Shown piece by piece: positions 4,359 to 9,706 of a stretch of 64,000 bases of DNA. The DNA is taken from NCBI GenBank assembly GCA_020854235.1, contig JADZFW010000042.1, positions 17,845 to 81,844 of the forward strand, written 5' to 3'. Made by a program: the position numbers and the translations under genes. The DNA comes from Flavobacteriaceae bacterium (GTDB taxonomy: Bacteria; Bacteroidota; Bacteroidia; Flavobacteriales; Flavobacteriaceae). Positions within the stretch are counted from its first letter, which is position 1. Each line of letters begins with the position of its first letter. The notes under the pieces were generated by a model. That model did not search any database. It saw only the letters and a list, made by a program, of their open reading frames with translations, and was not told the origin of the DNA.

Positions 4359-5447
4359 TTACCCATTCACAATCTTCTCCTGCTGACGAATACTCTCTTG
4401 ATGTATTTCTTTGAAAATCCCGGCAATAAACTCATCACTGAGTCCGGTTTGATGCGCTTTTTGAATCATTTTATCCATGATTTCATTAAACCGTTGGTTT
4501 TGTAATACAGCCACATTCTTTTCCTTTTTAACTTGTCCTATACGGGAAACGACCTGCATACGTTCGGCTAAAATGTCGATGAGTTTTTGATCAATTTGGT
4601 CTATTTCATTTCTCAAAACACCCAATTGATTGATGTGGGTAGCATCCTGAAATACCTTTTCTCTTACGGTCAACCGATGTATCATTTCGTGCAAAACGGT
4701 AGGCGTAATTTGTTGCATGGCATCGCTCCAAGCTTTGTCGGGACTGTGATGGGTTTCAATCATTAAACCATCATATTGTAAATCCAAGGCTGTTTGTGCC
4801 ACGCTTTCTATTGTGTCTCTGCGTCCGCAAATGTGTGAAGGATCGCAAATCATAGGAATATCGGGAAAACGACTTTTGAAATCGATGGGAATTTGCCAAT
4901 TGGGTTGGTTGCGATATTGAGATTTATTATAACTCGAAAAGCCTCTGTGAATGGCTCCCAATTTGGTTATACCTGCTTTGTACAAGCGTTCAAAGGCACC
5001 TATCCACAATTCCAAATCAGGATTGACGGGATTTTTCACCCAAACAATCTTGTCGCTGCCCTGCAATACATCTGCAATTTCTTGAACAGCAAATGGGTTG
5101 ACTGTTGTTCTGGCACCAATCCAAAGGATGTCTACGTCAAATTCCAAAGCCAATTTGACATGATGGGCATTGGCAACTTCAACAGCGGTAAGTAAACCTG
5201 TTTCTTTTTTAACCTGTTGCAACCAAGGTAAAGCCAATGCACCAATCCCTTCAAAACTACCCGGACGGGTTCTCGGTTTCCAAACGCCGGCTCTAAAAAC
5301 CGTCACTCTGCTCGTATCCGAACTCAATTGATGTGCAATGTTTAATACTTGTTCTTGTGTTTCAGCACTACAAGGACCTGCAATGGTAAGTGGATGACCC
5401 AAATTCATGTCTGTTAACCATTTCCCTAATGTTTTGTCGTTTTGCAT
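4359..5447 (-). CDS. bifunctional 3-deoxy-7-phosphoheptulonate synthase / chorismate mutase
   Basis: 362 aa; N-terminal LTIAGPCSAET..., AVEVANAHHVKLALEFDVDILWIGARTTVNPFAVQEIA; C-terminal chorismate mutase helix LRNEIDQIDQKLIDILAERMQVVSRIGQVKKEKN. Confidence 0.93.
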   Translation of the reverse strand: MQNDKTLGKWLTDMNLGHPLTIAGPCSAETQEQVLNIAHQLSSDTSRVTVFRAGVWKPRTRPGSFEGIGALALPWLQQVKKETGLLTAVEVANAHHVKLALEFDVDILWIGARTTVNPFAVQEIADVLQGSDKIVWVKNPVNPDLELWIGAFERLYKAGITKLGAIHRGFSSYNKSQYRNQPNWQIPIDFKSRFPDIPMICDPSHICGRRDTIESVAQTALDLQYDGLMIETHHSPDKAWSDAMQQITPTVLHEMIHRLTVREKVFQDATHINQLGVLRNEIDQIDQKLIDILAERMQVVSRIGQVKKEKNVAVLQNQRFNEIMDKMIQKAHQTGLSDEFIAGIFKEIHQESIRQQEKIVNG

Positions 5448-5583: not shown

Positions 5584-6489
5584 CTAATGTCTATCCAAAA
5601 CCTCCCGAATATGATTTGTATCTGACATAATTTGATACAAGGCATCAAAATTATCCTTTTCAATCAATTCGGCAAATTCTTTCAAATTTTTCATGTATTC
5701 ATCCAATGATTTTAAAATGGAAGCTTTATTTTCAATAAAAATAGGAGTCCAAGTTGATGGCGAACTTTTAGCCAAACGAACTGTTGATTCAAATCCACTT
5801 CCTGCCATGTTAAAGATGCTTTCTTCGTCTTTTTCAATTTCCATGACTGTTTTACCCAACATAAACGAACTGATATGCGACAAATGCGATACATACGCAA
5901 TGTGTTTGTCGTGCTCAATGCTATTCATGATATCTGTTTTCATGTGAAGTTCTTCAAATAGGAGTAAAGCCTTTTCCAATAAGTCGGGTCGAGTTAAATC
6001 AGCATCGCAAATGATATTCTTTTTACCTTCAAATAAAGTGTCAAAAGCGGCTTCAGGTCCCGAAAATTCAGTTCCGGCTATTGGATGACAAGCGATGAAT
6101 TGATTGCGTTTGGGATGGTTTTTCAAGGCTTCACAAATGCTGGATTTGATAGACCCTGTGTCAAAAACCAACGCATTGGGTTGGATTTGATCCAATATTT
6201 GAGCTGTGACTTCGGCAATTTTATTGACCGGAACGGCTACAACAACTAAATCGGTATGATGCAGTTCCTCTAATTTTATTGGTTCATCAATGAGTCTCAA
6301 TGTTAAGGCTTTTTCCAAGTGAGTGGCATTTTGATCCATTCCATAAACTTGCGCGCCTGTGATTTTTCTAAGTGCCAAAGCCATCGATCCTCCCAAGAGT
6401 CCTAATCCTATGATGGAAATATGTTTGATATGATGCATTTGTATTTGATTGATATTTTTAAAATTTTTTCTCGATAAAAAAACAAGCAT
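5584..6489 (-). CDS. tyrA: prephenate dehydrogenase
   Basis: HISIIGLGLLGGSMALALR Rossmann motif, HPIAGTEFSGPEAA; the more likely start is the internal Met at 6438. Confidence 0.9.
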   Translation of the reverse strand: MLVFLSRKNFKNINQIQMHHIKHISIIGLGLLGGSMALALRKITGAQVYGMDQNATHLEKALTLRLIDEPIKLEELHHTDLVVVAVPVNKIAEVTAQILDQIQPNALVFDTGSIKSSICEALKNHPKRNQFIACHPIAGTEFSGPEAAFDTLFEGKKNIICDADLTRPDLLEKALLLFEELHMKTDIMNSIEHDKHIAYVSHLSHISSFMLGKTVMEIEKDEESIFNMAGSGFESTVRLAKSSPSTWTPIFIENKASILKSLDEYMKNLKEFAELIEKDNFDALYQIMSDTNHIREVLDRH

Positions 6490-7634
6490 TATGATGATAT
6501 TCTTTGTAAAACTTCCTCCAATTTTTCTTCATTGATACATAGTGAAAAACGAACATAATGATTTCCATTACTTCCAAAAATACTTCCCGGAGTTACAAAA
6601 ATATCGTGTTCATATAAGAGTTTATCTGCCATGTCATAGGATTGAATACCATTGGGAAGTTGCATCCAAACAAAAAAACCTTCGGCACTTTTATCATATG
6701 TAAATCCCAGTTTATCAGCTATTTTCCACACAATACTTCTACGTCTACTGTAAGTTTGATTCTGTTGTTCAAACCAATCTGAATTGATCTCCAATGCCGC
6801 CGAAGCACCCATTTGCAAGCCATACAACATACCACTGTCCATATTGGATTTTACTTTAAGCGCATTGGATATAATTTCTTGATTACCAACCAACATACCT
6901 ACACGCCATCCGGCCATATTAAAACTTTTACTCAACGAATTGAGTTCAACTGCCACCTCTTTTGCTCCATCTACTTGTAAAATACTCCTTGGTTTTTCAG
7001 TCAATATAAAACTATACGGATTGTCATTGACGATTAAAATATCGTGTTTCTTTCCAAAAGCTATTAATTTTTCAAACAAAAGAGTTGTTGCTTTCGCCCC
7101 TGTGGGCATATTGGGATAATTGACCCACATCATCTTAATTGTTGATAAATCCATTTTTTCCAACTGCTCAAAATCAGGATACCAATTGTTCTCGGGAGTC
7201 AAATCGTAATGGATCATGTGCGTTTCCAAGAGTTGAGCTATTGCCGAATAAGACGCATAACCAGGATTGGGAACCAACACAGCATCTCCGGGATTGAGAT
7301 ACGCCATTGAAAGATGCATAATGCCTTCTTTGGCTCCAAACAAAGGTAAAATTTCAGAATGGGGATCTAAAGTTACGGCATAATGTTTCGCATAAAAAGC
7401 CGAAATGGCATTTCGCAAAGTGGCAATCCCTTTGTAAGGTTGATAACCGTGTTTGCTGACATCATCCAAAGCCTGATGCATGGCTTCTATAGCTTGAGGC
7501 GGTGGAGGTAAGTCGGGATTTCCAATGCCCAAGTTGATGATGGGTTTTCCTTGCTCTACCAAACTTTGAATTTCCCGAAGTTTTTCGGAAAAATAGTATT
7601 CGTTGACGTGTTGTAGTCTATCGGCGTGTCTCAC
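6489..7634 (-). CDS. pyridoxal-phosphate aminotransferase (class I/II), aromatic operon member
   Basis: 381 aa; INLGIGNPDLPPP, NPGYASY, VNYPNMPTGA, ELNSLSKSFNMAGWRVG (PLP Lys). Confidence 0.92.
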   Translation of the reverse strand: MRHADRLQHVNEYYFSEKLREIQSLVEQGKPIINLGIGNPDLPPPPQAIEAMHQALDDVSKHGYQPYKGIATLRNAISAFYAKHYAVTLDPHSEILPLFGAKEGIMHLSMAYLNPGDAVLVPNPGYASYSAIAQLLETHMIHYDLTPENNWYPDFEQLEKMDLSTIKMMWVNYPNMPTGAKATTLLFEKLIAFGKKHDILIVNDNPYSFILTEKPRSILQVDGAKEVAVELNSLSKSFNMAGWRVGMLVGNQEIISNALKVKSNMDSGMLYGLQMGASAALEINSDWFEQQNQTYSRRRSIVWKIADKLGFTYDKSAEGFFVWMQLPNGIQSYDMADKLLYEHDIFVTPGSIFGSNGNHYVRFSLCINEEKLEEVLQRISS

Positions 7635-7659: not shown

Positions 7660-8487
7660 TTAGATTCTGAATGAATTTTTATGTTCGTATTTCCCAAAGA
7701 TTTTTAGTTCGTTTACCATAGGTTTCAATTCGGATATGGCTTTTTCAAATTGCATTACATCGGTAAAAATCATGTCGGCAAAAAAGGCGTATTCCCAAGG
7801 TTTTTCAATAATGGGAAGTGATTGTATTTTACTCAAATTTAGATCATTAGATTTTAAGACTTGAAGTGCTGATAGCAAACTTCCGGTTTGATCCGATAAA
7901 CTGAATTTGATAGAAGCTTTGTTATAATTGGGTTTTTCTGAGCCTTTTTCTGCAGAGAGAATTACAAAACGTGTAAAGTTTGTAAAATGGGTTTGAATCC
8001 CATCTGCTATAATATGGAGTTGGTAGATTTCTGCAGCTTTAACCGAAGCAATTGCTGCTATACCCATCAATTGTTGTTCTTGAATTATCTTGGCAACTTC
8101 TGCAGTATCCTTGGCTTCAATGAGTTTGATGTGTGGATAAGGTCGGAAGTATTTTCTACATTGTTCGAGTGCCATGGGGTGCGACCAAACTTCCCTGATT
8201 TCTTTGATACTTTGCCCTTCCAATGCCATCAATTGGTGTTGAATCGGCAAGTAGTATTCCCCTAAAATATGTAAGTTAAATTCATCCAATAGATTGTAAT
8301 TGGGCAAAATAGCACCTGCAATGGTGTTTTCAATCGCCATGATAGCTTTATCGGCTTTATGTCCTTTCAATAGAGGCGGAATGTCGGAAAAATTGGGACA
8401 TTCAATCAATTCGATTTCCTCGCCATATAAATTGGTGGCGACTTGATGGTGATACGAACCTTTAATGCCTTGAATTGCTAAAATCAT
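7660..8487 (-). CDS. pheA: prephenate dehydratase
   Basis: 275 aa; AIQGIKGSYHHQVA, AIENTIAGAILPNYNLL, SHPMALEQC, THFTNFTRFVIL, ACT domain. Confidence 0.93.
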   Translation of the reverse strand: MILAIQGIKGSYHHQVATNLYGEEIELIECPNFSDIPPLLKGHKADKAIMAIENTIAGAILPNYNLLDEFNLHILGEYYLPIQHQLMALEGQSIKEIREVWSHPMALEQCRKYFRPYPHIKLIEAKDTAEVAKIIQEQQLMGIAAIASVKAAEIYQLHIIADGIQTHFTNFTRFVILSAEKGSEKPNYNKASIKFSLSDQTGSLLSALQVLKSNDLNLSKIQSLPIIEKPWEYAFFADMIFTDVMQFEKAISELKPMVNELKIFGKYEHKNSFRI

Positions 8488-8535
8488 GTGATTTATTATT
8501 CGTTTTTAAAATATTCATTCAAAATTGGACATAAA

Positions 8536-8563
8536 AAAAGTTCCGATAAAAACCGGAACTTTT
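8536..8563 (-). terminator. intrinsic terminator of the attenuator upstream of pheA
   Basis: Minus strand AAAAGTTCCG-GTTTTTAT-CGGAACTTTT with T-run extending to 8533; 10-bp perfect stem. Confidence 0.88.
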
Positions 8564-8609
8564 CAATATTGTCATTCAATCAATTACAAACAAATCAGTT
8601 CCGGCTTTT
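8548..8609 (-). promoter_or_regulatory. antiterminator pairing of the aromatic operon attenuator
   Basis: Minus strand AAAAGCCGGAACT (8609-8597) pairs with AGTTCCGGTTTTT (8560-8548): 13 bp with one G-U, mutually exclusive with the terminator stem. Confidence 0.82.
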
Positions 8610-8660
8610 ATGGCTAAAATAAAAGTAAAAGAATTGATAGAAAGAATTGACTTGAGTCAT
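8595..8660 (-). CDS. attenuator leader peptide MTQVNSFYQFFYFYFSHKSRN
   Basis: 22-codon ORF; codons 7-15 read ttc tat caa ttc ttt tac ttt tat ttt (F Y Q F F Y F Y F); stop codon abuts the antiterminator arm. Confidence 0.85.
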   Translation of the reverse strand: MTQVNSFYQFFYFYFSHKSRN

Positions 8661-8827
8661 TTGTTTATGTTTATGGGGCAAACGTAATTAAATTTATTTA
8701 TATATCAAAGTATGTTTACTAATTTATAAAGAGTTTTGTTTTATTACATTTACTAAATTGTATAACATTATAAATTGATCTAATTTAATCCATCTATATT
8801 TGAAAATTGTAAATTGGAGTTTTAAAT

Positions 8828-9706
8828 TTATTTAAACTTTTTTTTAACCCATTTAAACCCATTCACCACTATAAGTGCGAATATACCTGCAATAATTCCC
8901 ACCAAAAATTCAGCAAGAAAAGAAGGTAAAAAATGCAACCATTCGTGTATTTGATGCACATTGTGTACATAAATGCCGCCGGCTACAAAAAGCATCGCTA
9001 GGGTTCCTACTACAGCCAGAATTTTGATCACATAAGGTAGTGATTGTACCATTAACGAACCTACTTTTTCTAAGGACTTTTTCTTGTATTTTTCACCTTT
9101 TCGCATCAAGGCAAATCCCATATCATCCAAACGCACAATCAAAGCTACGATTCCATAAACGCCTACCGTAGTGATGATGGCAATTACAATTAAAACCATA
9201 ATCCTTACGGTCAAACTTTTTTCTGCTACGGTACTCAAAGAAATAATGATGATTTCCAAGGAAAGTATAAAATCAGTCAAAATAGCCGATTTGATTTTTT
9301 TCTTTTCAGTGGCTTCTATATCTACATCATAGAGTTCTTGTGTTTCTAAAGCTTCTTCTACAGGATTGTGATGCGGAAAGAAATATTCAAAGATTTTTTC
9401 GGCACCTTCAAAAGCCAAATACAAACCTCCCAACATCAAAATTGGATTTACAGCCCATGGGGCAAACGAACTCAAACCTACGATTAATGGTAATATGATG
9501 AGTTTGTTGAGAAATGAACCTTTGGTTATAGCCCAAATAACGGGCAATTCACGGGATGAAACAAATCCGGTGCCTTTTTCGGCATTGACAGCTAAATCAT
9601 CTCCTAGAATTCCTACTGTTTTTTTAGTAGCCAACTTTCCCATGGTGGCTACATCGTCCATCAAAGTGGCTATATCGTCAAAAAGTGCGAAAAATCCTGA
9701 GGCCAT
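8828..9706 (-). CDS. DUF808 / YedI-like membrane protein
   Basis: 292 aa; ASGFFALFDDIATLMDDVATMGKLATKKTVGILGDDLAVNAE is the family N-terminus. Confidence 0.88.
   Translation of the reverse strand: MASGFFALFDDIATLMDDVATMGKLATKKTVGILGDDLAVNAEKGTGFVSSRELPVIWAITKGSFLNKLIILPLIVGLSSFAPWAVNPILMLGGLYLAFEGAEKIFEYFFPHHNPVEEALETQELYDVDIEATEKKKIKSAILTDFILSLEIIIISLSTVAEKSLTVRIMVLIVIAIITTVGVYGIVALIVRLDDMGFALMRKGEKYKKKSLEKVGSLMVQSLPYVIKILAVVGTLAMLFVAGGIYVHNVHQIHEWLHFLPSFLAEFLVGIIAGIFALIVVNGFKWVKKKFK

Follow-up and report, generated by a model that had tools for sequence, protein, structure and literature searches.

The pheA operon in the window (the whole 64,000-nt stretch of Flavobacteriaceae DNA analysed here) is preceded by a region that we read, with a probability of roughly 0.9, as a classical ribosome-mediated transcription attenuator sensing charged Phe- and Tyr-tRNA. 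Transcription of the operon very probably hinges on how fast the ribosome moves along a tiny Phe/Tyr-rich gene. We observed the parts of the attenuator, their conservation and co-variation in relatives, and their computed switching. The conserved codon run, the covarying helices, a transcription start predicted upstream and the flip of the fold under masking all support the attenuation reading that had been proposed in the initial annotation. The mechanism is itself classical, being attenuation of the Yanofsky type.

Anatomy of the region upstream of pheA

The attenuator region was read directly from the minus strand between the DUF808 gene and pheA (Table 1). The order on this strand is promoter, leader ORF, terminator hairpin, pheA, aminotransferase, tyrA and DAHP synthase/chorismate mutase, and Pfam domain matches bore out the identities previously given to the dehydratase, aminotransferase, dehydrogenase and DAHP synthase/mutase genes. 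The leader starts with ATG at 8660 and stops with TGA at 8597-8595, giving 21 codons plus the stop. As had been noticed, this unannotated short ORF carries Phe or Tyr at eight of the nine codons 7-15 (F Y Q F F Y F Y F; aromatic at 7, 8 and 10-15). Dinucleotide shuffling of the 340-nt intergenic region, repeated 3000 times, never produced an ATG-initiated ORF with eight of nine aromatic codons; at least seven were reached in 5 of these shuffles and at least six in 50. In the whole window, three further short ATG-ORF sites have at least six aromatic residues in nine. A second short ORF, running across the terminator (MTILKSSGFYRNFFYVQF), was judged incidental: it arises from the stem sequence and is altered in L002.

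Direct reading confirmed both helices described earlier, namely a 13-bp antiterminator with one G-U pair, formed by segments 2 and 3, and a perfect 10-bp terminator stem, AAAAGTTCCG (8563-8554) with CGGAACTTTT (8545-8536), followed by a T-run. The terminator can be extended to 13 bp through extra inner and outer pairs. Segment 3 is common to the two helices, which are mutually exclusive. The first arm had been placed abutting the stop codon; the adjacency stands, but the arm actually lies inside the ORF, being built from leader codons 18-21 and the first letter (T) of the stop. In relatives, segment 2 is found in the final ORF codons or just beyond the stop. The initial annotation could define no convincing 1:2 pause hairpin. 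A 7-bp candidate does appear in the MFE fold, but it seems weakly conserved: the MFE z-score from leader to segment 2 was -0.79 in the window and averaged -1.08 in 125 leaders (28 below -2), suggesting a region scarcely more structured than its shuffles.

The initial annotation had overlooked a promoter that fits the Bacteroidota consensus, TTTG-N19-TACGTTTG. A simple promoter and terminator scan found neither a Bacteroidota promoter nor the hairpin, and the terminator was seen by a local search. The Bacteroidota -7 box is reported to occupy -12 to -5 relative to the start of transcription (PMC9723704), and because the box is so placed, transcription is predicted to start at about 8674, 14 nt ahead of the ATG. 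This places the predicted start ahead of the leader, neither within the hairpin nor beyond it. Of 130 leaders, 73 had the TAnnTTTG motif in the 60 nt preceding them, compared with 9.2 in shuffles, at a modal distance of 18 nt from the start codon, and 61 of these 73 leaders also have TTG in the -33 zone.

Translation in Bacteroidota starts without Shine-Dalgarno pairing (PMC6847099, PMC9976891), and the leaders are consistent with the SD-independent initiation suggested for them: none of 132 has an SD-like 4-mer between -18 and -4. Start codons are ATG in 129 of 133 leaders and GTG in 4. Upstream of the start there is a Kozak-like enrichment of A at -3, -6 and -11/-12, close to the positions (-3, -6, -12 and -13) that promote initiation in F. 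johnsoniae (PMC6847099). In the window's own leader, -3 is C and both -6 and -12 are A.

Table 1. Features of the probable pheA attenuator and its surroundings (window coordinates).
Feature	Position	Strand	Evidence
Upstream DUF808 gene	8828-9706	minus, same as pheA	
-33 promoter element, TTTG	8706-8709	minus	direct reading; 19 nt ahead of -7 box
-7 promoter element, TACGTTTG	8679-8686	minus	direct reading; Bacteroidota consensus TAnnTTTG
Leader peptide ORF, MTQVNSFYQFFYFYFSHKSRN plus stop	8595-8660	minus	direct reading; shuffles; homologous leaders in relatives
Candidate 1:2 pause hairpin, CTTTTAT (8625-8619) with ATAAAAG (8611-8605), 7 bp	8605-8625	minus	MFE fold
Segment 2, 5' arm of antiterminator, AAAAGCCGGAACT	8597-8609	minus	direct reading; covariation; swap test
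Segment 3, common to antiterminator and terminator, AGTTCCGGTTTTT	8548-8560	minus	direct reading; covariation
Intrinsic terminator hairpin 3:4	8536-8563	minus	direct reading; local search; folds; covariation
Terminator T-run, seven T	8533-8539	minus	direct reading
pheA, prephenate dehydratase, first operon gene	7660-8487	minus	Pfam PF00800, E 3e-56
Class I/II aminotransferase	6489-7634	minus	Pfam PF00155, E 2e-64
tyrA, prephenate dehydrogenase	5584-6489	minus	Pfam PF02153/PF20463
DAHP synthase fused to chorismate mutase	4359-5447	minus	Pfam PF00793 + PF01817

Conservation of the leader and covariation of the helices

Relatives were collected by one protein search of a species-level genome collection, which gave 80, and further loci came from a search of the phylum. 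The aromatic codon run proved to be kept: 131 of 138 pheA upstream regions have, in the same place, a Phe/Tyr-rich leader with a terminator after it, in a set of loci that are not independent (sister species are among them, and L083 and L041, whose contigs have equal lengths, are apparently the same record). Four of the other seven loci retain the leader with an insertion or a rearranged operon. In L010 the leader is at 4960 and a transposase-like ORF lies between it and pheA. This ORF (MKTIPFEPSKYYHFFNRGNNKENIF..., REP-type by eye; L010:4960-6001) is accompanied by GGTCTGCAAGACCTACCAGGTC-like repeats. In L106, L107 and L109 pheA lies far down a rearranged operon, and the leader precedes the DAHP synthase gene, which is now first (L193-L195). 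The order there is leader, DAHP synthase, an aroB-like gene, aroA and pheA, with all gene names except DAHP synthase judged by eye. For L011 and L043 the upstream sequence is short or truncated; L007, which is labelled Gammaproteobacteria, has none.

Outside the class, 32 loci, with a more distant PheA, lacked the leader and four had it. The PheA proteins of these four (L136-L139) are nearer to that of the window (42-45% identity) than those of the leaderless loci, which suggests that operon and attenuator were transferred together. A second, wider sample of the class gave a clear leader in 11 of 23 loci and a weak one in one more. Class members with pheA and no recognisable leader were L196, L197, L201, L203, L204, L207, L210, L215, L217 and L218; five of them (L197, L201, L203, L204 and L207) belong to a single family, f58, and this clustering hints that the whole lineage has lost the leader. 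The attenuator is near-universal in the family and patchy in the class.

Both Phe and Tyr are present in all 133 pheA leaders, and Trp in 60. The Trp codons would fit control of DAHP synthase, whose step is common to all three products. The mean number of aromatic codons per nine was 7.3 in frame 0, whereas the other two frames had 2.3 and 2.6.

Compensatory changes, which had been proposed as a check, were found at five of the seven core pairs in each helix. They were counted on 37 distinct triples, with joined 7-mers and constant linkers as rows. Of the 3:4 pairs 100% were kept, with 34 double-change cells against 10.4 in shuffles. The 2:3 helix kept 88.4% of its pairs and had 32 double-change cells against 10.1, a count favoured by the fact that segment 2 was picked by complementarity. 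For both helices the double-change cells exceeded every shuffle, and a one-base slide collapsed both. Segments 2 and 4 alter together among the variants of the seven-base core (GTTCC/GGAAC, GTCTC/GAGAC, GTCCC/GGGAC, GTCCT/AGGAC, GCCTC/GAGGC and ATCCC/GGGAT). A species swap is a fairer test than the 2:3 count, since swapped pairs undergo the same complementarity choice. The match of segments 2 and 3 within a species averaged 18.7, and 2000 swaps averaged 14.2 and never exceeded 15.1. For the window itself the match was 29.5, above all of its own shuffles (maximum 22.0).

Predicted switching and competing explanations

Folded alone, the 2:3 hairpin of the window has a free energy of -19.7 kcal/mol and the terminator -15.0 kcal/mol. 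Masking covered 15 nt on each side of the P site, the length for the E. coli ribosome. In these masking folds the position of the ribosome flipped the RNA as had been claimed. On the full transcript, a ribosome stalled in the codon run left the 2:3 helix at 1.00 and the terminator at 0.00; a ribosome at the stop reversed these values to 0.00 and 1.00, taking the terminator from 0% to 100%. The required switch, with 2:3 formed on stalling and absent at the stop, was seen in 111 of 125 leaders. Stalling at the regulatory codons freed segment 2 in 124 of the 125. A ribosome at the stop covered at least half of segment 2 in 108 leaders (all of it in the window) and less than half in 17.

These folds are consistent with the following sequence of events. 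RNA polymerase would begin near 8674 and the ribosome at 8660, without a Shine-Dalgarno sequence. A shortage of Phe- or Tyr-tRNA would stall the ribosome in codons 7-15 with its leading edge short of, or barely at, segment 2; segments 2 and 3 would then pair before segment 4 is made, no terminator would form and the operon would be transcribed. With both tRNAs plentiful, the ribosome would reach the stop and cover segment 2, the 3:4 terminator would form and transcription would end after about 140 nt. Operation of this kind in vivo would require that transcription and translation be coupled, that both amino acids be sensed and that the hairpin terminate. With no ribosome, and before segment 4 is made, 2:3 was predicted in 99 of 125 leaders, including that of the window. 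Because 2:3 would form before segment 4 exists, a leader that is not translated might allow read-through, and the basal state would differ from that of E. coli trp unless countered by a 1:2 hairpin; the candidate in the window may oppose such read-through.

One alternative is a nascent peptide of the TnaC or Erm-leader type, which would itself stall the ribosome on a free ligand and not through tRNA starvation. A peptide rich in aromatic residues could make contacts in the exit tunnel, and some lineages retain near-identical peptides, for example NTWQAYFYFFYFYK and NSTFFYNNSFYFFWRQ. However, lineages differ in how many F and Y they have and in how these are ordered, and only the aromatic character is kept. 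In close pairs, 187 of 266 altered aromatic codons stay aromatic (48 synonymous changes and 139 F-Y-W exchanges) and the first base is seldom altered (28 of 362 substitutions), counts that are descriptive as the pairs overlap. The leaders of his and trp operons, moreover, bear His and Trp codons, fitting codon starvation. We consider peptide arrest highly improbable.

Even less probable, in our judgement, is a riboswitch or protein-sensing leader with an incidental ORF. The region is structured overall (z -3.3) and has a terminator; yet no Rfam family reached its gathering threshold, the aromatic codons are concentrated in frame 0 alone, and the ORF starts are nearly always ATG with Kozak-like A at the positions given above. 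That the hairpin is simply the ordinary terminator of the DUF808 gene, with an AT-rich spacer reading F/Y by chance, we regard as scarcely credible. The DUF808 gene does share the strand, and TTT and TAT codons are common in AT-rich DNA such as this. Against it stand the shuffles, none of which gave the aromatic run, the recurrence of the pattern with a covarying antiterminator in more than 100 loci, and the leader's place at the operon head even where pheA is not first (L193-L195). Ribosome-mediated attenuation is the reading that we retain.

Related operons and known attenuation systems

In the window's own genome (76% complete) hisG was unmatched and the sole PF04715 match was weak, and his and trp leaders were hence examined in relatives. 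Leaders with a run of His codons precede hisG in 7 of 7 relatives (L172-L178), and leaders with two or three adjacent Trp codons, mostly Trp-Trp-Trp, precede trpE in 8 of 8 (L179-L186). The identity of the codons follows the pathway, and pathway-specific attenuation looks general in Flavobacteriales, judging from these sequences. Some species have two units in series. Two Phe/Tyr leader-terminator units stand before pheA in L112 (G037), L133 (G167) and L134 (G072), and in L184:101-390 (G258) trpE is preceded by two Trp-Trp-Trp leader ORFs, each with its own terminator.

Core amino-acid operons in an SD-independent phylum are very probably governed by the logic of trp-type attenuation. On balance we favour, with modest confidence, a broader view: that ribosome-mediated attenuation is the general control of aromatic, histidine and tryptophan operons across Flavobacteriaceae and much of the class. 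In this view initiation on 5' leaders of about 14 nt is SD-independent and Kozak-like, several end products are sensed through a single mixed Phe/Tyr(/Trp) peptide, and some species use two attenuators in tandem. If this is true, close transcription-translation coupling in Bacteroidota becomes directly testable. Under the attenuation mechanism the first ribosome must track RNA polymerase closely, within about 140 nt, and the leaders would therefore serve as natural reporters of coupling. For annotators, the pattern supplies a rule by which unannotated leader genes can be found, and the comparative set is ready for the missing Rfam family.

A comparative survey of attenuation has reportedly been made by Lopatovskaya et al. 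(2010). Our search of the literature on attenuation in Bacteroidetes found no detailed description. The novelty implied in the initial annotation is reduced: the pheA element is not a first sighting, because a 2021 transcriptome of Flavobacterium psychrophilum had already reported a structured 5' element ahead of pheA that is conserved in Flavobacteriaceae and has no Rfam hit, along with strong hints that amino-acid operons are attenuated through leader peptides (PMC9723704). That element concerns the same gene in the same bacterial family and offers RNA-level support in a relative; the main text of the report gives no anatomy, covariation or distribution past the family for it. What is new here is the anatomy, the covariation evidence, the breadth, the SD-free initiation and the tandem copies.

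As in the trp and his attenuators of Proteobacteria and the amino-acid operon attenuators of Actinobacteria (PMC1262725), the codons match the pathway and a 2:3 helix competes with a 3:4 helix. Unlike in those systems, the phylum, the sequence and the position of the arm are different, initiation is SD-less and a pause hairpin is not evident. An Rfam scan of the window gave nothing at the gathering threshold, and a permissive scan of the element gave sub-threshold matches only; among these, RF01859 (Phe_leader) matched weakly over its full-length model (19.1 bits, E 0.56; gathering score 55 bits). The enterobacterial pheA attenuator that RF01859 describes likewise has a Phe-rich leader peptide, an antiterminator/terminator switch and prephenate dehydratase as its target, but in the element described here Phe and Tyr codons are mixed (with Trp in many leaders), a four-gene Phe and Tyr operon is controlled, there is no SD and segment 2 lies inside the leader ORF. 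The element would function like the pheA and trp attenuators and stands outside the Rfam Phe_leader family.
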